From contig OW799237.1 of the NCBI GenBank assembly GCA_941918925.1, positions 76,457,126 through 76,521,125 of the forward strand: DNA of 64,000 bases, read 5' to 3'. The DNA is from Phyto melanocephala. Lineage: Eukaryota > Arthropoda > Insecta > Diptera > Rhinophoridae. The notes below the pieces were generated by a model. That model searched no databases. It was not told where the DNA came from and saw only the letters and a list, made by a program, of their open reading frames with translations. Positions 2,961 through 57,655 of this stretch are shown one piece after another (the stretch's first letter is position 1; each line of letters begins with the position of its first letter). A program made the translations under genes and the position numbers.

Positions 2961-3166
2961 TTAAAAGTAGGAGGTGCCATGTCCACACAAAGCTTATATT
3001 ATTTTTTAACTACCTCTGGTTACCAGTCTCCGTAAAAAAAAAACAACTTTGTGGTAAAAAATATCACTCCTAATGTAGAAATACTTAAGGTTTTGTTGTA
3101 AGACTTAATTTAAAAAAATAAATTAATAGCAAATCGAAGTTACACAAAGAAAATGATGCATATTTT

Positions 3167-3815
3167 TATACCCGCCACCAAAAAAATGGTGGGGGTATAT
3201 TCATTTTGTCATTCCGTTTGTAACACATCGAAATATCCATTTTAGACCCCATAAAGTATATATATTCTGAATCGGGGTTTGATTTGATGACGATCTAGCT
3301 ATGTCCGTCCGTCTGTCCGTCTGTCCGTCTGTCCGTCTGTCCGTCTGTTGAAAGCACGATAGAGGTCGCACCGAAAAAGCTAAAGGGCTCAAATTTTGCC
3401 AGAATCTTTCTAATAGACAAGGTTTGTTTGGTATTGAAAATGGGCTAAATCGGAATATTAGAAAGAGAGTTATAGCTCGTAAAGCAAGAATAGGTCGAAA
3501 AAACCGTGTCCTTCAAACATCGAAAAAAAAGGAATTGTGTCCAAACGCATAAACGTAGAGTCATGAAACTTCGAATATATATTTCTCGAGTCAAAAGAAT
3601 ATTTCTCCCCAAAAATTGCTTAAATCTATGCATTAGAAAAGGAGTTATAGGTCAAAATGTACGAAAATTTATACCGCTCAGTGTATATTTGAAGTTTAAA
3701 ACGTAATAAAACTGACAAAACTATATGTACGGTTCTGAAATTTTGCAAACATGGTTTTTTGGTCAAAGTCTTCGTTATAACGGAAAATAAATGTTCCACG
3801 CCCACTTTTTTTTTT
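3167..3815 (+). mobile_element. DINE-1-like (Helentron) copy, family A, 3'-truncated
   Basis: Begins with the family's 5' hairpin (TATACCC at 3167, pairing with GGGTATA at about 3193), then the leader, GACCCCATAAAGTATATA, a run of five GTCCGTCTGT units (3305-3348) and a conserved body that ends in a CACGCCCAC motif near 3800. The 3' hairpin is absent. Known: Drosophila INE-1/DINE-1 elements, which are non-autonomous Helentrons, share the TATACCC start, the GTCCGTCTGT microsatellite and CACGCCCAC motifs. The small ORFs over this copy are artefacts of the repeat. Confidence 0.75.
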
Positions 3816-4549
3816 AAATTTTTATAAAAATATATTAGTCATATTCATTAGCATTTATTCATTGCAGATGGCGACATCTGTTGTAGGCGCCACTACATTT
3901 TGCAAACACTGAGGATGATGTCTTTGCTAAACATCACGTAGAACACTAGATGACTCTAGTAACATTTTTTTGCACAAACTACAAAGGAATTTTATAGGGG
4001 TTTGTGAAAACGAAAATGACCGAAGTTTGTTGACAAAAATTAACTAGAGTAATGATTTGTGCCCAACTTTACATATAGTTGTACACACAGTTTTATGAGG
4101 TCATAGACATGCTCAGCATTTTGCTAAAACGGGAAACTTATTAGTAAGATTTTGATTTTTAAAGTTCTATAACATTTTACTTTTAAATGATTTTCAAACG
4201 AAATAAGTTTTGTATAATTTTAAAATTTGTTAGCCATTAGTACATGAAAATAAATAGTTTATAATGTTTAGAAATAATTTTTTTTTATCTTTAGGTCTAA
4301 ATTTTCCTAAATTCCTTTTTTTAATACACCATAACTTCTAGAAAACATAAGATGACAAAAAGAAATTAGCACCATTTAGTAGATAAAACTCTCCTCTATA
4401 CCCCTATACCCCATTGTATACCCGTTACGATCCGACCGTGATTAGCAGACCAATTTTTGTGACACAAGGTCAAATATTTTTTGCAAAATTTTAGTAAAAA
4501 AGCTAAACAAATTTTTTTGTAATGTGCTTTTTTGAAGTATTTGAGTTTT
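3816..4549. other. AT-rich spacer, nothing recognised
   Basis: No ORF with protein-like composition, no inverted ends and no RNA gene were seen. A short piece near 4390-4440 has TATACCC-like words that could be a decayed repeat end. Confidence 0.5.
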
Positions 4550-5438
4550 TATATCCGCCACCAAAAAATGGTATGTATATATTCTTAATCGGGGTTTTAT
4601 TTGATGACGATCTAGCTATGTCCGTCCGTCTGTCCGTCTGTTAAAAGCACGATAGAGGTCCCATCGAAAAAGCTAGTGGGTTCAAATTTTGCCAGAATAT
4701 GTCTTATACACAAGGTTTGTTTGGAATAGAAAATTGGCTAAATCGGAGTATAAGGAAGAAAGAAAAATTGCCTAAATGCATGTATTAGGAAGGGAGTTAG
4801 AGATCAAAATGTACGAAAATTTATACCGCGCAGTGTATTTTCCAATTTGTTAAAAATTTTAAACCTAATAAGAGTGACAAATTTAGATCTACGATTCTGA
4901 AATTTTGCAGGAATTGCTTTTTGGTCAAAGGCTTTCTTCTGACGAAAAATAAATGTGACACGCCAACCTCCCATACAACGTTTTCTCTCAAATTCTTATA
5001 ATTTCTTTATAAATCGAATAATAAAGGACTTTATTGAAATATCTAAGTTGTATTTATTAGCATAAATAACTTCGACACACCTACTATAACGCTCACTTTC
5101 CACGTTATTTACTGTTAATGAAATTTAAAAGCTCATAAAACCGACAAAATTAGAGGTATGATGATAAAATTTGCTACGGAAATCCTTCTAGTCAATGTTA
5201 TTGTTATGCCAGAAAATTTAGGTGACACGCCCACTATTACGCCCACATCCTATATAATGCTTTATTTCAAATTCATATAATTTCTCAATGAATAAATATT
5301 TTGGAAGAATTACGGACTATATTGAAATATCTAAGTTGTATTTATTAGCAGAAATTTTATTGACACGCTTACTTTAACGCCCATTTTCACTGAAACACTT
5401 AATTTACGAAAACATTTTACCAGCATATCCAAGTTATA

Positions 5439-24364: not shown

Positions 24365-24429
24365 TAACTTCGATATGCTACTAAAATGCTTTTGTAAATG
24401 TAGTCTTTCAATGAAAGTGGGCATTAAAG

Positions 24430-25590
24430 TAGGTGTGTCAATAAAGTTTCTGCTAATAAATACAACTTAGATATTTCAATATAGTCCTTATTTTCCAAAA
24501 AACTTTGTCAATAGAAAAATTAAATGAATTTAAGATAAACCTTTATATGGGAGGTACACGTTATAGTGGGCGTGTCACCTAAACTTTTTGGCACAACAAC
24601 TACATTGATTAGAAGGATATATGTAGCAAATTATCTCATCATACCTCTAATTTTGTCGGCTTTATGAGCTTTAACGTTTCATTAGCGGTAGATAACGTGA
24701 AAAGTGGGACAATAATGACACTGCCTAGGGGGATATACGTAGCAAATTTGATCATCATTCATCTAATTTTGGCGGTTTTATGAGCTTTTAAATTTCATTA
24801 ACGGTAGATAACGTGAAAAGTGGGCGTTATAGTAGGCGTGTCACAGTTGTTTTTGCGAATGAGTGCATTTTAGATGTTTCAATATAGCCTTTTATTATTC
24901 CAAAATCGTTTTTAATAGAGAAATTATATGAATTTTAGGTAAAACGTTATATGGGAGGTGAGCGTAAAAGTGGGCGTGGCACCTTAATTTTTTGGCACAA
25001 TAATGACATTGCCTAGGGGGATATACGTAGCAAATTTGATCTTCATTCATCTAATTGTGGCGGTTTTATGAGCTTTTAATTTTCATTAACGGTAGATAAC
25101 GTGAAAAGTGGGCGTTATAGTAGGCGTGTCAAAGTTATTTTTACGAATGAGTACATTTTAGGTGTTTCAATATAGCCCTTTATTATTCCAAAATCTTTAT
25201 TAATAGAGAATTTATATGAATTTTAGCTAAAACGTTATATGGGAGGTGGGCGTAAAAGTGGGCGTGGCACCTTAATTTTCTGGCACAGTAATGACATTGC
25301 CTAGGGGGACTTACTTAGCAAATTTGATCATCATACCTCTAATTTTGGCGGTTTTATGAGCTTTTAAATTTCATTAACGGTAGATAACGTGAAAAGTGGG
25401 CGTTTTAGTAGGCGTGTCAAAGTTATTTTTGTGAATGAGTACAACTTAGGTGTTTCAATATAGCCCTTTATTATTCCAAAATCTTTATTCGTAGAGAGAT
25501 TATATGAATTTTAGGTAAAACGTTATATGGGAGGTGGGCGTTAAAGTGGGCGTGGCACAATGATTTTCGGTTATAACAAAGCCTCTCACC
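24430..25590 (-). repeat. 288-bp tandem repeats inside family A
   Basis: GTAGATAACGTGAAAAGTGG recurs at 24688, 24803, 25092 and 25380; the last three are spaced 289 and 288 bp. Each unit contains GTGGGCGT..GTAGGCGTGTCA, CGTTATATGGGAGGTG and CCTAGGGGGA. Units differ by scattered substitutions, so the array is not very recent. Other family A copies have only one or two such units. Confidence 0.8.
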
Positions 25591-29575: not shown

Positions 29576-30174
29576 AAACACACTTGGACACTTTTCGAAA
29601 AAAAAATATTTTTAATACAAAATTATAACTCACCATTGTTATGTAATTTACAATATCTGTAAAGAAATATAGAAAAAGAAAACAATATTAGTCATTGAAA
29701 ATAATTGCATTCAAAATTGTTTATATAAAGATGTGATAGCAGATGTAGTCAACTATATATTACGGTGCCTCTAGTGGTTAAATATTATAACTTTTTGTAT
29801 ATGGTGTTAATAAGAAATGTACCGTTACTTCTTTAAAGTTCTAGGTGTGGGAAATAAGACACAAAGAGAAAATTTGTATTTCCAAGCCCCCTTTGATTCC
29901 ATAAAACACAGCATATAGCGTTTCAACTCTATAGAAAAATTATTTTTAAACAATTCTAACACAATGTTTTTTAAAAAAGCTCATTAAAATTTTCTTTGAC
30001 AGTTTTGTATCTGTACGCAAAGAAACATCAAGGTTGTATGTGATCATAATGTAAGACCAACATAGTATGATTGCATTACATGATTGTAGTTAAAACATAT
30101 AATGGTTGCAAGTCATCATTATTACTGATATCATATTACGACCGCACTTGATCATTAAATAAACCTATATAATC
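29576..30174. other. AT-rich spacer, left flank of the ribozyme array
   Basis: No gene or repeat end recognised; ordinary AT-rich sequence. Confidence 0.5.
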
Positions 30175-30290
30175 ATAATAAAATAATTTAATAAATTGAA
30201 TTTTTATTTTGTCGAACTTTTCTGTTTAAACTATTATTTAAATATTTAATCAGGCTTGAGTTCATATTAATATTCTTTATTTTTACAAAG

Positions 30291-30333
<43 letters not shown>

Positions 30334-30373
30334 GTGATAAATGAAAGAATAAATCTTGAAAAATTATATTTTT

Positions 30374-30444
30374 ACCGACACTAGCCGAGTGGAATGCATT
30401 TTCGAAACCAGCTACGATTTCATCATCAGCACTCTCTGATCGGT
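30374..30444 (-). ncRNA. Hammerhead ribozyme candidate, monomer 1
   Basis: Read on the minus strand: outer stem I ACCGA/TCGGT, internal loop TCAGA/GGCTAGTG, inner stem I GAGTG/CACTC, core CTGATGA, one unpaired T, stem II GAAATC/GGTTTC with loop GTAGCT, core GAA, a very short stem III (AA/TT, loop TGCA), then C as the cleavage-site base before CACTC. Predicted cleavage lies between plus-strand positions 30392 and 30391. The layout is that of a type I hammerhead with a minimal stem III, as in Penelope/retrozyme ribozymes. The extra T before stem II departs from the consensus G-C closing pair and could weaken activity. Confidence 0.6.
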
Positions 30445-30893
30445 GGTTACATGTTGGTTGTAAATATCATCTATTTAACTCACGGGACTTATGTTAATTG
30501 AATTCGGTAACTAATTTTTAGTTTTTCCTATTTCATATATTTTTACCACAATGAGTTAGATTGAAATTTTAACCAAACAGCAACCCTTTTTACTTTTGTT
30601 TGTTAGTATCTTTCATTTATCACTATTTTTGTCCTGCTCTAGCCACCAGTTAGGTAGCGATAAGAACAGATAATTGTTTTTAACAATCAATGTTTATAAT
30701 CATTTGTTTTATTTTCTGTGAGGTCAGTATACAACGAAATGTTGACTGACTAACAGTGAATGAATGATTTTTTGCACCGTGCCCTGTGTTTATATAAATT
30801 GAATTTTTATTTTGTCGAACTTTTCTGTTTAAACTATTATTTAAATATTTAATCAGGCTTGAGTTCATATTAATATTCTTTATTTTTACAAAG

Positions 30894-30928
<35 letters not shown>

Positions 30929-30970
30929 TTTTGATAAATTAAAGAATAAATCTTGAAAAATTATATTTTT

Positions 30971-31041
30971 ACCGACACTAGCCGAGTGGAATGCATTTTC
31001 GAAACCAGCTACGATTTCATCATCAGCACTCTCTGATCGGT
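30971..31041 (-). ncRNA. Hammerhead ribozyme candidate, monomer 2
   Basis: Identical over the 71-nt core region to the copy at 30374-30444; all core and stem bases conserved. This monomer differs elsewhere (TATTTTTGATAAATTAAAG after the T-run), so the motif is kept while flanks vary. Confidence 0.6.
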
Positions 31042-31559
31042 GGTTACATGTTGGTTGTAAATATCATCTATTTAACTCACGGGACTTATGTTAATTGAAT
31101 TCGGTAACTAATTTTTAGTTTTTCCTATTTCATATATTTTTACCACAATGAGTTAGATTGAAATTTTAACCAAACAGCAACCCTTTTTACTTTTGTTTGT
31201 TAGTATCTTTCATTTATCACTATTTTTGTCCTGCTCTAGCCACCAGTTAGGTAGCGATAAGAACAGATAATTGTTTTTAACAATCAATGTTTATAATCAT
31301 TTGTTTTATTTTCTGTGAGGTCAGTATACAACGAAATGTTGACTGACTAACAGTGAATGAATGATTTTTTGCACCGTGCCCTGTGTTTATATAAATTGAA
31401 TTTTTATTTTGTCGAACTTTTCTGTTTAAACTATTATTTAAATATTTAATCAGGCTTGAGTTCATATTAATATTCTTTATTTTTACAAAGAATTTTTTTT
31501 TTTTTTTTTTTTTTTAATTGTGATAAATGAAAGAATAAATCTTGAAAAATTATATTTTT

Positions 31560-31630
31560 ACCGACACTAGCCGAGTGGAATGCATTTTCGAAACCAGCTA
31601 CGATTTCATCATCAGCACTCTCTGATCGGT
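31560..31630 (-). ncRNA. Hammerhead ribozyme candidate, monomer 3
   Basis: Same 71-nt sequence and fold as the copy at 30374-30444, 589 bp after the previous copy. Confidence 0.6.
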
Positions 31631-32148
31631 GGTTACATGTTGGTTGTAAATATCATCTATTTAACTCACGGGACTTATGTTAATTGAATTCGGTAACTAA
31701 TTTTTAGTTTTTCCTATTTCATATATTTTTACCACAATGAGTTAGATTGAAATTTTAACCAAACAGCAACCCTTTTTACTTTTGTTTGTTAGTATCTTTC
31801 ATTTATCACTATTTTTGTCCTGCTCTAGCCACCAGTTAGGTAGCGATAAGAACAGATAATTGTTTTTAACAATCAATGTTTATAATCATTTGTTTTATTT
31901 TCTGTGAGGTCAGTATACAACGAAATGTTGACTGACTAACAGTGAATGAATGATTTTTTGCACCGTGCCCTGTGTTTATATAAATTGAATTTTTATTTTG
32001 TCGAACTTTTCTGTTTAAACTATTATTTAAATATTTAATCAGGCTTGAGTTCATATTAATATTCTTTATTTTTACAAAGAATTTTTTTTTTTTTTTTTTT
32101 TTTTAATTGTGATAAATGAAAGAATAAATCTTGAAAAATTATATTTTT

Positions 32149-32219
32149 ACCGACACTAGCCGAGTGGAATGCATTTTCGAAACCAGCTACGATTTCATCA
32201 TCAGCACTCTCTGATCGGT
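32149..32219 (-). ncRNA. Hammerhead ribozyme candidate, monomer 4
   Basis: Same 71-nt sequence and fold as the copy at 30374-30444, 589 bp after the previous copy. Confidence 0.6.
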
Positions 32220-32737
32220 GGTTACATGTTGGTTGTAAATATCATCTATTTAACTCACGGGACTTATGTTAATTGAATTCGGTAACTAATTTTTAGTTTT
32301 TCCTATTTCATATATTTTTACCACAATGAGTTAGATTGAAATTTTAACCAAACAGCAACCCTTTTTACTTTTGTTTGTTAGTATCTTTCATTTATCACTA
32401 TTTTTGTCCTGCTCTAGCCACCAGTTAGGTAGCGATAAGAACAGATAATTGTTTTTAACAATCAATGTTTATAATCATTTGTTTTATTTTCTGTGAGGTC
32501 AGTATACAACGAAATGTTGACTGACTAACAGTGAATGAATGATTTTTTGCACCGTGCCCTGTGTTTATATAAATTGAATTTTTATTTTGTCGAACTTTTC
32601 TGTTTAAACTATTATTTAAATATTTAATCAGGCTTGAGTTCATATTAATATTCTTTATTTTTACAAATAATTTTTTTTTTTTTTTTTTTTTTTAATTGTG
32701 ATAAATGAAAGAATAAATCTTGAAAAATTATATTTTT

Positions 32738-32808
32738 ACCGACACTAGCCGAGTGGAATGCATTTTCGAAACCAGCTACGATTTCATCATCAGCACTCTC
32801 TGATCGGT
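32738..32808 (-). ncRNA. Hammerhead ribozyme candidate, monomer 5 (truncated unit)
   Basis: Same 71-nt sequence as the other four, in the unit that is cut short at 33050 and joined to the inverted partial copy. Confidence 0.6.
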
Positions 32809-33050
32809 GGTTACATGTTGGTTGTAAATATCATCTATTTAACTCACGGGACTTATGTTAATTGAATTCGGTAACTAATTTTTAGTTTTTCCTATTTCAT
32901 ATATTTTTACCACAATGAGTTAGATTGAAATTTTAACCAAACAGCAACCCTTTTTACTTTTGTTTGTTAGTATCTTTCATTTATCACTATTTTTGTCCTG
33001 CTCTAGCCACCAGTTAGGTAGCGATAAGAACAGATAATTGTTTTTAACAA

Positions 33051-33119
33051 AAAAAAAAATTCTTTGTAAAAATAAAGAATATTAATATGAACTCAAGCCT
33101 GATTAAATATTTAAATAAT
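33051..33119 (+). repeat. Inverted partial monomer closing the array
   Basis: AAAAATTCTTTGTAAAAATA and the following bases to TTTAAATAAT are the reverse complement of the monomer part around 30233-30305 (T-run, AAATAAAGAATATT, CTCAAGCCTGATT). It makes the right end of the element an inverted copy of part of its left end. Confidence 0.8.
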
Positions 33120-33132
33120 AAAATAATTTAAT

Positions 33133-33714
33133 TTTCATATATGTATGTAGAAATCACACGACCACAAAATAGTTAAAAATTATCAAAACGTGATCTTACA
33201 ATTCTAGGTTTGAAAAAACAAAATATATTTGTAATTTTTAATGCTTATTATTTCAATATTATGCTATGTTTGTCCCAATAGTTTTTAAAAACTTTTTTTT
33301 TTAATACAACCCTGCTTTTATAAAACAAAATACTAAATATAAAATTTAAGCAAATACAGCTAAACCTAAACCAGAATAGCAAGCGTTGGGCTAAGCGCTG
33401 ATGGTGAAGTAATAAACCTAAACAAAAGTATCAATAATAATGAACAGTAATGTTCAAATATGTTCTTTTAATAAAATCCCCTACATGGAAATAAGTATAA
33501 AAATGCTCAAATGGCATTACATTTCAATATTTACTTCAATAATTAGCGCATTATCAAAATTGGATGTTTGCTGTTATTAAGGTCTGGCGGTAAGTTGATG
33601 TTAGAAAATTAATGTTTAAAATATATAATAAAATTAACTATAATTTGTTTGCAATAACTTAATATTGCTACAATTTCTTTGAAAACAACTACGAACACAT
33701 ATTTAGATGTACCA
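33133..33714. other. AT-rich spacer
   Basis: Right flank of the array; no gene, repeat end or RNA recognised. Confidence 0.5.
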
Positions 33715-48609: not shown

Positions 48610-49063
48610 GAACAAAAATTTTAAAAAATTAAAAAGCTTTATTCAGTTGTGCCGAATTTTCATTATCCTTTATCATAGGAATCGCAAAATGTTTATACAA
48701 AGTAAGCCAATTCATAACCTCAATTCCACTTCCAAACAACAGCCAAAATTTTACTGCTTTAATGTAAGAAACTTTTCTCCTTGTTTAATATTTGGATAAA
48801 AATTAAATTGTTGTTTAAAGGAAGCAAAACACTATCAAAATAATAAAAATAAAAGTTTAAATTTATTTAATTTATAAAAGTACAATTTAACTTGAGCACT
48901 TAATTGGAGATAAAGAACACAACAAATGATGATACGTGCAACAACAAATATACTGACAACTAACCGATACAATGTATGTATATACAGGGTGGACCAAAAA
49001 TCGCCACGCGATTTAAAAATTTAATAAATTTTTTTTTTAATATTACATTTGAACTTCCTATTT
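48610..49063. other. AT-rich spacer with decayed Helentron end
   Basis: About 48640-48680: TTTATTCAGTTGTGCCGAAT followed by TTATCCTTTATCA resembles a mutated reversed family terminus. ACAGGGTGGACCAAAAATCG at 48985 looks like a lone mariner inverted end. Confidence 0.45.
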
Positions 49064-49186
49064 TTAGGGTCATATTCATAAAAAATATTTTAGGTTTATT
49101 AAAGGCTTATTTAACAGATGTCGTAGAGAAATTTGTCAAATAAGCTTTCAATAAACCTAAAATATTTTTTACGAATACGGCCCTTA
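49064..49186. mobile_element. 117-bp Harbinger-like MITE, TTA duplication
   Basis: Element 49067-49183 is a hairpin: the left arm GGGTCATATTCATAAAAAAT runs through TTTAGGTTTATTAAAGGCTT and the right arm is its near-perfect complement, ending TACGAATACGGCCC. TTA flanks both sides (49064-49066, 49184-49186), a TWA duplication. Arms of about 47 bp leave a small loop. Confidence 0.75.
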
Positions 49187-49214
49187 ATTTTTAAATTTAG
49201 TCTATAAGTTCAAT

Positions 49215-49430
49215 GGAATAATCACAGAATATTCGATACTAGCTAAGTGGAATGCATTTTCGAAACCAGCTACGGTCTCATCACTAGCACTATTTTGATC
49301 AGGACTGCAAGTATTGTGTGTAAAAATCAACTATTTAACTCAGTATTGTATTGAAAAATGAAATAAAGAATTATTTGTCCTAATTGATTTCATGTTTTTT
49401 ATATACATGCCATTGAGTTAGTACGACATT
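49215..49430 (-). repeat. Diverged single monomer of the hammerhead array
   Basis: Matches the array unit over GTGGAATGCATTTTCGAAAC, CAGCTACG, TCATCA-like and TATTTAACTCA, then more loosely through TTTCATGTTTTTTATATACA and CATTGAGTTAG. The ribozyme core is changed (CTAGTGA in place of CTGATGA on the minus strand), but stem II is kept by paired changes (GAGACC with GGTTTC, loop GTAGCT). It is a dispersed relative of the units at 30193-33050. Confidence 0.65.
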
Positions 49431-49840: not shown

Positions 49841-50999
49841 AACAAGTAAGAGTACTATATATGCGCTGAATTGTTTATACCCACCACCAATTTAATGTAG
49901 TTTTACAGCACAACATTTATTCATTCATTTATTTACTTAATCGTATTTAAATATACTAAATAATAATAATAAATAATCCCTTTATACTAAAATATGTATG
50001 TATGACCTTCTTTGTATAACTTCGATATGCCAGTGAAATATTTTCGTAAATTTAGTCTTTCAATGAAAATGGGCGTTAAAGTAGGCGTGTCAATATAGTT
50101 TCTGCTAATAAATTAAACTTAGATATTTGAGTGTAGTCCTTTATTCTTCCACAACTTTGTCCATAGAGAAATTATACGAATTTAAGATAAACCGTTATAT
50201 GGGAGGTAGCGAAATTTAAATTTCCTTGACAGTAGGTAACGTGAAAAGTAGGCATTGAAGTTGGCGTGTCAATGTAGTTTTTAATAATAAATTCAAATCC
50301 GATATTTCAATATAAAGTCCTCTATTCTTCAAAAATCTTTATTCATAGAGAATTACAAGAATTTGAAACAAAGCGTTATTTGGGAGGTAAAAGTGGGCGT
50401 GCCACATTTATTAACCGTTTGTACAAAGCCTTTGACTAAAAAGTAATGTTTGCAAGAAAACTTTGCCAGTTTTATTACGTTTTAAACTTTTAATATACCA
50501 AAACATACACTGTGCGGTATAAATTTTCGTACATTTTGATCTATAACTCCTTTCCTAATGCATAGATTTTGGCAATTTTCGGGGGAAAATGTTTTTTTAC
50601 TCAGGAAATATACGTTCGAAGTTTCATGGCTTTACGTTAATGGGTTTGGACACAATTGCACTTTATTCGATGTTGGAAGGACACGGTTTTCTTGACCTAC
50701 TCTTGTATTACGAGCTATAACTCTTTTCCTAATATTCCGGTTTAGCCCATTTTCAATACCAAACAAACCTTGTGTATAAGAAATATTCTGGCAAAATTTG
50801 GGCCCTCTAGCTTCTTCGGTTCGACCTCTATCGTGCTTTCAACAGACGGACAGACAGATGGACCTAGCTAGATCATCATAAAATGAAACCCCGATTTAGA
50901 AAATATATACTTTATGGGGTCTAAAATGAATATTTCGATGTGTTACAAACGGAATAACAAAATAAATACAACCCCACATTTTTTTGGTGGCGGCTATAA
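49841..50999 (-). mobile_element. DINE-1-like (Helentron) copy, family A, without MITE
   Basis: Reverse orientation. Left AACAAGTAAGAGTACTATAT (hairpin decayed), then TTATACCCACCACCAATTT; right GGTGGCGGCTATA at 50999. It contains about two GTGGGCGT/AGGCGTGTCA units and ACAGACGGACAGACAG. It has the uninterrupted target CTTTGTATAACTTCG that the mariner MITE occupies in the copies at 4550 and 23607. Confidence 0.75.
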
Positions 51000-52099
51000 A
51001 AACATTTGGGTGATTCACAAGATCATGTCATGTCATACATGTCATATTCTTCTAAAATTTTACAATGGTTTAAAAATGTTGTTGTTACTTCACAAACAAA
51101 AAGTGTCTTATAATAATAGAACTTTGTACGCTATATTTATTGTGCTGTCGTATTTAATAAGCAGAGACCTGTGCTAAACGGCTCAGCCGACTAAGCCAAG
51201 CTGCAATAGTTTTTGTAAGCTGTCGCCGTTCATTGTATAATTTTATCGGGCCGACATCCAAATTTAAGCGCACCTAATAATTTTTGATAACAAATCACTG
51301 GCGGCGTCAAATAAGATCGGCTAAGGACTCTGCTCTTTTTGTTTATTAAACAAAATTTAATTTATTTGTGATTTGCAGCAAAACTGAAAAATGGAAAATA
51401 TTGTGGTAAGATCTAATTGAATAAATTCATGGATTAGAATTACAAAATATTTTCACTTGTTTTTGGCATTATGAAAGAAAATATTTATTTTAATAATTGT
51501 TTTACATCAGCTGATTTAAATTCAAAATAGCACACTTAATTATGAGGCGTTGTTCACAATTGTCTTAATTTTTCATGCTATTATTATAGGACATATGATT
51601 TTATGACACTACTGTGAATCCCCCAATTGAAATATAAAATTTTATGTGAGTGTGTGTGTGTGTGCTAAAGCAAATGTGAAATGGAAAAACAAAAATTATA
51701 AAGGAAAACTAATACAGGGATAGATAATATTTGATATTTTAAAGTAACGCGGTACTCAGAATCTGGCTCATAAATATGGATTGTTATAAATGTTGAAAAA
51801 AAATTTTACACCTTTAACTAAATTTTCAAAAGAGATAACAATCCATTAAAACTTTTATTTTCCATCTGTGACATATTTCAAAGTAGAGTATAAATATGTG
51901 CTGAAAGGTGCTTTGATGCTTTGTACAAAAACAGATTGCCTACTGTTCTTGTATTTTTGTTGTAGGAACGAGTTAAGCTGGTTTTCTTGTACCGCGACTA
52001 AAACTGACAATTTGAAATTTGTGTATGAGAATTGACACTTGACAAGTCAAATTTGTTACAATTTTAGTTACCGTAATAAAGTTCAAAATAAAGCGTGCT
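51000..52099. other. Spacer, nothing firmly recognised
   Basis: Includes (TG)n near 51650-51663. A CAGAGACCT...AGGACTCTG inverted pair around 51162-51334 was examined but lacks a target duplication. Confidence 0.45.
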
Positions 52100-56589: not shown

Positions 56590-57655
56590 AAAGGAGTGGA
56601 TCTTTCCCAGATCACCTGCAGAAAGACAAGTTTTACTTTCAAGTATTGATGACCTAGAACCCGGTGTCTAAGGTCCCCAAATACAGGACAATTACAGAGA
56701 AGATGTTCAGTTGTCTCCTCTTCTTTCTCGTTATCGCAACTTCTGCAGAAGTCGTTTTAAGGGATATTTAGCCTTTTCGCATGTATACATATAGGTCAGT
56801 GTCCGGTAATGACCGCTATGAGGTTCCTAAGGTGGATTCGGGGCATATTCATCGCATAATACGTCCAATGCGCATCCATATCAGGCCAGATTTTTCTGGT
56901 TTCCAAGCAAGTGGGTTCTCTCACCCATATTTCCTTGGCCTCCAAAAAGAATCGATGCGAGATTAGCTGCTTTCCCTTTGATAAGGGAATACCCAGAGCA
57001 CAACTGGATTCAATCGAATCTAAAGTGGTACCGGCTTTTGCAAGTGCATCAGCCCTATTATTACCATCGATATCCCCATGTCCTGGAATCCACACAAGGG
57101 TAACCGTCGAATGTCTCGCTATCTCCTCAAGAGGCACCCGGCATTCCCGGCCAATTTTCGATGTGCTGTACACGCTCTCAAGGGATCTAATAGCAGCCTT
57201 GCTATCAGTAAATATATAAATATCCCTACCAGATATTCCTTGTTTTGAATCTGTTCCGCGGCTGTCTTAATGGCCAATAATTCGGCTTGTATCGCCCTAC
57301 AGTATTCCAAGCCCAACTGAAGCGAAAAGATACCACATCAAGTTCCAGCATGTGATTTCGATTCGTCAGTAAATATCTGGATGGCATTCTTCGGAGGTCG
57401 GAGGCCATTATCGGATTATCAGATATATCCGGTATATTCGTCACGAAACCCGGATCGAATACTGGTTCAGGTACCTTGTAATCAATAGGATAAGCAATAT
57501 TAATCATACCCAAAATCCTTGCATGCCCATAATTAACATACTTCCATGCCCCTGTGGCATTCAGCCTCAGTGCGGTGTCCGCAGCCATCTGCTTAGCCAG
57601 GATGTCTGGTGGTAACCAGTTCAAAATAGTGAAAAGTGCCTTAGATGGGTGGTCC
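56590..57655 (-). pseudogene. LINE ORF2 C-terminal half with RNase H (I/R1-type)
   Basis: Minus strand from about 57650: KALFTILNWLPPDILAKQMA, ADTALRLNATGAWK, GHARIL; after frameshifts the RNase H domain: LEYCRAIQAELLAIKTAAEQ, then STVTLVWIPGHGDIDGNNRA and DALAKAGTTLDS; then HLRNLIAVITGH and the CRSC...ETTEHLLCNCP knuckle near 56720, to about 56590. Only the region after the RT is present. The base composition is richer in G/C than the surroundings. Probably inserted between parts of an older LINE (57700-57969 and 54790-56395). Confidence 0.75.

Follow-up and report, generated by a model that had tools for sequence, protein, structure and literature searches.

Animal retrozymes of the kind lacking long terminal repeats (non-LTR) are described as tandem, AT-rich units that carry a type I hammerhead ribozyme, are flanked by target duplications and have no coding capacity (PMC7229834); insect repeats resembling them are mentioned in that account without detail. 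Two candidate movers are given in print, long interspersed nuclear elements (LINEs) and Penelope-like elements (PLEs), with PLEs preferred on the basis of shared hammerheads and co-occurrence (PMC7229834, PMC7761336, PMC11722881, December 2024 review). Retrozyme repeats are said, in the available passages of these accounts, to show no motif that decides between the two (PMC7229834, PMC7761336, PMC11722881). Here we describe a tandem array at positions 30175-33132 of a 64,000-nt stretch of DNA (the window) from the rhinophorid fly Phyto melanocephala (assembly GCA_941918925.1, contig OW799237.1, positions 76,457,126 to 76,521,125 of the forward strand). The array very probably represents a retrozyme-like retroelement without an open reading frame (ORF), with a usual unit of about 575 nt, that parasitises the PLEs of its host genome and is moved in trans by a PLE enzyme. 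This judgement leaves out the ribozyme step, which is weighed separately below.

The PLEs closest to this picture are Poseidon of Anolis (PMC11167929) and Penelope of Adineta vaga (PMC3846280). As far as their published descriptions were available, they resemble the present family in placing a hammerhead close to the start sites, in occurring as tandem and head-to-head copies that can end on one side in a tail of 30-40 nt, in inserting into AT-rich targets, and in having a TATA/initiator spacing and a stem-loop start. The Anolis protein extends both target strands in vitro from two neighbouring start points within the RNA, and the start site did not differ between the strands; the 30-40 bp tail is optional, and its signature is called unique to PLEs (PMC11167929). 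In rotifer PLEs a repeat copy stands inverted, one of the copies bears a 31-bp tail, target duplications measure 8-10 bp, and a TATA and initiator lie 20 bp apart in the repeat (PMC3846280). Unlike these elements, the unit described here has neither a reverse transcriptase nor an endonuclease. Unlike animal retrozymes as printed, its insertion ends and a start-site hairpin tie the family to PLEs. No dipteran retrozyme with PLE ends is described in the titles and abstract openings listed by searches of an open-licence library.

A dispersed family of tandem units

The array comprises four full head-to-tail units and a fifth truncated to 480 bp; the original prediction, made from the sequence of the window, had counted five units of 589-603 bp, which holds for the first four. 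Outside the length of an A-run, the aligned units vary at only four positions: unit 2 accounts for three of these, adjoining the A-run, and unit 5 for the fourth. An inverted partial unit had been placed at 33051-33119 and was found at 33046-33120, a 75-bp piece with 98.7% identity to unit positions 40-114. The 18-bp direct flanks were also borne out, being identical and composed entirely of A and T; since up to 5-6 flank bases could equally be insert, the target duplication proper is 13-18 bp. The array is absent from the Tandem Repeats Finder list because the longest period of that program is 500.

The unit has a GC content of 28%, and the array holds no reverse transcriptase or GIY-YIG ORF: the sole stop-to-stop frame of at least 120 aa touching it is one of 127 aa with a lysine run, which lies outside the Pfam scan. 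That scan covered nine window ORFs and returned an RNase H fragment above the cut-off, a DUF1746 match below it and no PLE. On the hammerhead strand, TATATAAA lies 31 nt ahead of an initiator, TCATTC, at all four unit junctions (0.003 per unit expected); there is one additional match to this pair elsewhere in the window.

The unit was used as a query against the host genome (740 Mb, nine contigs), and the best 39 of 2046 first-look candidates were scored. The matches listed fall into 39 loci, 38 of which were fetched with 600-bp flanks and analysed together with the window. These loci are dispersed over six contigs, in agreement with the expectation that further arrays would be found outside a single locus and with target duplications. 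The 53 full units, from 29 loci, measure 544-603 nt, and 40 of them 569-576 nt. The unit is thus indeed longer than the 170-400 nt printed for animal retrozymes (PMC7229834), a descriptive range. The long T/A run, originally listed as a trait of the unit, holds for the window, where the A-run spans 23-37 positions, and not for the family, where it spans 5-7 in 42 of 53 full units.

With one unit taken per locus, the hammerhead diverges by 0.49% and the unit outside the A-run by 0.63%. The family is young (0.6% divergence). Full hammerheads identical to those of the window number 92 of 107, 12 partial matches standing outside this count. A 121-bp query gave 40 perfect hammerhead modules among the 40 scored of 997 candidates, and the family is therefore large. 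At C1:69210855-69222800 there is a much longer array with 15 perfect hammerhead modules in 12 kb, many of them about 579 bp or multiples of this apart.

Like published retrozymes, the family combines a GC content below 50%, target duplications longer than 4 bp and a type I hammerhead in multi-copy tandem units. Circles and cleavage are features of the animal retrozymes as described (PMC7229834); for the present family they are predicted. Its unit size lies outside the printed range, and we do not file it as a plain animal retrozyme.

Insertion ends and a hairpin shared with resident PLEs

Head-to-head arm pairs make up 32 of the 39 loci, the other seven (L039, L044, L045, L048, L050, L060 and L061) being direct only. 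Two of the latter, L060 and L061, lie 4 kb apart with the same ends and are probably a single insertion duplicated together with its flanks. Outer ends were classed by unit position (u) as site A (u1-9) or site B (u28-55). In 31 of the 32 head-to-head loci both ends lie at these start sites; L041, with one end at u252, was set aside. All 31 classed pairs consist of one A and one B end, with no AA and no BB pair. The B ends span u33-53, the extremes being u9 for A (L065) and u53 for B (L032), and the A-B spacing is 31-40 nt in 29 of the 31. A second parsing, against a doubled unit and with u570-576 counted as A, gave 31 pairs, two of which (L041 and L048, the latter with a 26-nt second arm in this parsing) have one end elsewhere, and did not class L051 and L056 as pairs; the remaining 29 of 29 are again one A plus one B.

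Duplications of at least 11 bp flank 27 of the 31 classed loci, against 1.2% when partners are shuffled, and the commonest length is 13 bp, compared with 8-10 bp in the rotifer PLE (PMC3846280). Since one-A-one-B ends with duplications match the tail signature printed as unique to PLEs, they link the family to these elements. The strict pairing goes beyond the anole and rotifer accounts as far as these are available (PMC11167929, PMC3846280).

The arms reach 4621 nt, or eight units (L049), and because they hold several units, a circular or uncut multimeric template is needed. At the inner junctions the arms overlap or are separated by at most 8 nt in 28 of 31 loci, and the inner ends are spread over the entire unit. 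Private variants are compatible with either template and not decisive: 12 occur in every unit of both arms, one in both arms but only some units, and 62 in one arm only, while 23 have cover of one arm only and 18 have single cover.

A reverse transcriptase motif was used to search the host genome for PLEs, and the best 150 of 778 candidates were scored, down to E 2.9e-20. Of these matches, 22 lie in open frames of 800-859 aa, and several neighbours are arranged head-to-head or in tandem at about 3 kb. In one cluster (C5:51663663-51683382), six matches, two minus and four plus, lie about 3050 bp apart on each strand, giving the head-to-head architecture at a 3-kb scale. A Pfam search of the genome for GIY-YIG returned one match, read as SLX1. 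This is an unfair test for PLEs, since a resident copy scores just below the cut-off (L073: RVT_1 at E 1.5e-9, GIY-YIG 21.6 bits against a cut-off of 22.6).

The sequences fetched comprised nine PLE stretches (L070-L078) and, from the outer parts of three loci, six more (L079-L084). Thirteen of these 15, all except L070 and L075, contain hammerhead cores, 14 in total. In every one of the 14, stem II (3 to 7 pairs) closes only with one extra nucleotide after CTGANGA, and GAA is followed by ATAT and then C or T, a small palindrome. The unit has the same layout and the same extra nucleotide, with a longer stem III palindrome (AATGCATT versus ATAT).

Downstream of the PLE hammerhead lies a hairpin of the form GAnCT...AGnTC, read directly from the sequence, as MAFFT misplaced the 3' ends of three hairpins. 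Its arms are GATCT/AGATC in L073, L074 and L080, and GACCT/AGGTC in L077, L084, L076, L078 and L081. In the unit they are GAACT/AGTTC, about 100-130 nt past the predicted cut, such that the third pair is A-U in the unit and U-A or C-G in the PLE families. In L079, L082 and L083 the copy departs from the element within the hairpin loop.

The insertion ends of the PLEs agree with those of the unit. Of three PLE loci inspected, two pair an A end with a B end and carry a 13-bp duplication: at the C2 locus the left arm ends at +31 (B) from the hairpin start and the right arm at +69 (A), and at the C4 locus B is at +29 and A at +65. The corresponding offsets in the unit are +32 for B (taking u40) and about +71 for A, with a modal duplication of 13 bp. 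With offsets and duplications near equal, unit and PLEs agree in geometry, spacing and duplication. The duplication search at the PLE loci was free over 80 positions; no mismatched arms or flanks exceeded 10 bp, and a length of 13 bp was attained by random stretches in none of 400 cases for C2 and in 5 of 400 for C4. Blast ends had suggested two equal ends for the C4 locus, and short duplications of 9 and 8 bp were derived from such ends, a picture superseded by letter-by-letter comparison.

These results are consistent with a model in which a unit transcript, made from the TATA/initiator promoter, would carry a type I hammerhead of the PLE kind followed by the PLE-like start hairpin. A PLE protein may then bind this hairpin in trans and cut both target strands about 13 bp apart. 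Copying of circular or multimeric RNA would begin at each of the two start sites, one per target strand, and yield arms as long as eight units. The original prediction of a non-autonomous retroelement related to PLEs is thus upheld by dispersed copies, target duplications, PLE-type start sites and the hairpin. As for a Penelope-like reverse transcriptase sharing the unit, the genome holds many long-ORF PLEs; most of the stretches fetched have the same hammerhead layout, several have a similar hairpin, and there is no further convincing match to the unit in nine stretches.

We consider it somewhat more likely than not that animal retrozymes in general are satellites of PLEs that keep the start-site hairpin, each insertion being a two-strand event with one strand copied from A and the other from B of a circular or multimeric RNA. 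The family supplies a motif and insertion ends that match those of PLEs in the same genome almost position by position, making the mover of animal retrozymes testable in other animals by means of the hairpin and the A/B rule. The strict rule, if true, would point to an asymmetric enzyme dimer acting on both cut strands, and an RNA bearing the hairpin should serve as a PLE substrate.

The hammerhead and competing explanations

A minus-strand hammerhead segment of identical layout is present in all five units, as had been predicted. It reads stem I (ACCGA/UCGGU and GAGUG/CACUC), CUGAUGA, an extra U, stem II (GAAAUC/GGUUUC), GAA, AAUGCAUU and a C at the predicted cut, and shows the type I features of CUGANGA, GAAA, a UH cut site and three helices in register. 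A motif descriptor (5-bp stem I, CTGANGA, 0-1 extra nucleotides, stem II of 4-6 bp, GAAA, UH), composed after the extra nucleotide had been seen, matches only these five segments in the window, where 0.0033 matches are expected (one in 300 Markov sequences of window length). Hammerhead patterns gave no match in the viral and prokaryote contigs searched.

The unpaired U, listed at the outset as an oddity, is real. It follows A9, between the core and stem II, and since all 14 PLE cores have an extra nucleotide we regard it as a trait of PLE hammerheads here. One unpaired nucleotide after A9 also occurs in the self-cleaving plus-strand hammerhead of chrysanthemum chlorotic mottle viroid, which differs in being a viroid of unrelated sequence (PMC3705267).

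Stem III is the 8-nt palindrome, which forms two pairs and a tetraloop in the monomer and eight pairs in a dimer. It permits a double hammerhead of -35.7 kcal/mol, as against -12.6 for a single monomer in hammerhead form. Two-pair stems III with a tetraloop, and palindromic loops, are described for animal retrozymes as well (PMC7229834). Palindromic or double forms are also known from hammerheads in insect repeats, namely those of Aedes aegypti (PMC3088659) and the cave cricket satellite pDo500 (PMC2837043), whose available descriptions differ in giving no insertion mechanism or PLE hairpin. In the unit, the sequence of loop II (UAGC) complements that of the internal stem I loop (GCUA). Of 3000 sampled folds, 68% contain stems I and II together; the best monomer fold has additional pairs within the core, and the predicted unit circle is more stable than 60 shuffles (z -3.6).

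The window contains a diverged relative of this module at 49234-49342. Its stem II keeps 6 of 6 pairs (GAAAUC to GAGACC), the loop-loop match 4 of 4 and inner stem I 4 of 5; one pair is lost in each of inner and outer stem I, and the palindrome is kept. Because two core bases (G5 and A6) are changed, it is probably a dead copy. Beyond the module, alignment on the right side scored 53.2, where the 95% control is 50.2 and the highest control 60.9, and a longer right stretch scored 102.5 against a control of 106.7; there is no homology beyond the module on the left side. An imperfect 125-bp foldback at 49063-49187 (81.6% to its own reverse complement) adjoins the relative.

On balance we lean slightly towards a working ribozyme, in which hammerhead cleavage would yield unit-length RNA, probably as a dimer through the stem III palindrome, and a host ligase would close the cut units into circles.

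Several observations tell against the interpretation as a whole or in part. The 39 loci were taken by highest score and do not represent a random sample. The 14 PLE cores amount to about six distinct sequence groups, and in two of them stem II has just 3-4 pairs. L071 and L072 lack the hairpin arm pair, and the chance estimate for the hairpin, 0.002 per 260 nt, is too favourable, the pattern having been written after the sequences were seen. The third PLE locus (C3) is complex, with no clean duplication (7 bp). Besides the hairpin and hammerhead layout, the unit has no convincing match to the nine PLE stretches, the best listed being 36 nt of A/T-rich sequence at E 7e-4, and we therefore name no particular PLE as its partner. 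As regards the ribozyme, the lowest-energy dimer fold (-46.2 kcal/mol) differs from the double hammerhead, and the predicted circle is only 55% paired, against the more than 70% printed for retrozyme RNAs (PMC4918200). Conservation does not single out the hammerhead within the unit, since 62 of 98 windows equal or exceed it in this respect; no selection on it is detectable among family copies because the family is too young. The check proposed in the original prediction, an Rfam search of the full window, 29800-33500 and two 91-base pieces, failed: there were no matches at gathering score in the window and no hammerhead at E up to 10, neither the unit hammerheads nor the diverged relative being scored, in a run without a PLE-type hammerhead as positive control. 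Finally, the predicted cut shows no excess of inner arm ends (4 of 62 lie within 10 nt of it, 2.3 expected), so that the genome bears no footprint of cleaved linear templates, and linear cut monomers are disfavoured as the main template.

The Rfam result and the inner ends also suit an alternative in which the PLE enzyme would move uncut multimeric read-through RNA, leaving the hammerhead as a relic that neither cleaves itself nor gives rise to circles. This is quite possible, although we somewhat doubt it; it concerns the ribozyme step only, and its likelihood is not to be added to that of PLE-driven movement. In the available part of the anole study, hammerhead mutants of the PLE left in vitro insertion unchanged and no reads began or ended at the cut (PMC11167929), and conservation is little informative given the youth of the family (divergence of 0.49% within and 0.63% outside the motif). 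Against a relic, the core and stems are intact, with most full copies identical to those of the window; stem II, the loop-loop match and the palindrome are kept in the relative near 49 kb, whose flanks align unconvincingly; and a circular template would be expected to give arms that hold several exact units.

Movement by a LINE, in which twin priming would produce the 5' inversion and the A and B ends would be coincidental, is very unlikely. Target duplications of similar length and 5' inversions occur with LINEs too. The second primer of a twin-priming event would not be expected to sit at a fixed position, however, whereas here the second outer end lies at u33-53 in 31 of 31 pairs, and the hairpin is common to the unit and PLEs. 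In favour of a LINE, the 15-bp duplications of Nematostella retrozymes have been likened to those of LINEs (PMC4918200). Classical satellite DNA spread through unequal exchange would account for near-identical head-to-tail units and at least one long array (C1 69.21-69.22 Mb), but is contradicted by 39 dispersed loci on six contigs, by the fixed ends and by the duplications of at least 11 bp that flank 27 of the 31 head-to-head loci with both ends classed, and is scarcely credible.

Positions of features in the window

Table 1. Coordinates of the array components and of the diverged hammerhead module, numbered from the first letter of the window
Feature	Positions	Strand	Remarks
Left target-site duplication (13-18 bp, all A/T)	30175-30192	.	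identity to 33115-33132
Right target-site duplication	33115-33132	.	identity to 30175-30192
Unit 1 (603 bp)	30193-30795	-	left edge = RNA 3' end of insertion = start site A
Unit 2 (597 bp)	30796-31392	-	
Unit 3 (589 bp)	31393-31981	-	
Unit 4 (589 bp)	31982-32570	-	
Unit 5 (480 bp)	32571-33050	-	truncated on RNA 5' side
Inverted head-to-head second arm	33046-33120	+	98.7% to unit positions 40-114; outer end = start site B (unit position 40-46)
Expanded A-run (37) of unit 1	30293-30329	-	other units 31, 23, 23, 23
Hammerhead candidate, unit 1	30374-30444	-	core starts 30429; predicted cut between 30392 and 30391
Hammerhead candidate, unit 2	30971-31041	-	core starts 31026
Hammerhead candidate, unit 3	31560-31630	-	core starts 31615
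Hammerhead candidate, unit 4	32149-32219	-	core starts 32204
Hammerhead candidate, unit 5	32738-32808	-	core starts 32793
TATA box + initiator	30762-30796	- (hammerhead strand)	TATATAAA + 21 nt + TCATTC, TATA at -31
TATA + initiator	31359-31393	-	
TATA + initiator	31948-31982	-	
TATA + initiator	32537-32571	-	
PLE-like start-site hairpin GAACT...AGTTC, unit 1	30214-30263	-	site B (30232) in loop; site A (30193) 21 nt past 3' arm
Same hairpin, units 2-5	30817-30866, 31414-31463, 32003-32052, 32592-32641	-	by unit offset
Diverged relative of hammerhead module	49234-49342	-	80% over 110 columns; pairing of stem II intact, G5 and A6 of the core altered

Elsewhere in the window, the RNase H fragment (PF00075) lies on the minus strand at 56799-57266 and is probably derived from a retrotransposon. 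A second tandem repeat, with units of about 288 bp that are 79-93% alike, occupies 24414-25568 and is related to the stretches 3160-5438 and 50015-51002; its assignment to a Helitron-like (DINE-1) family is a guess.

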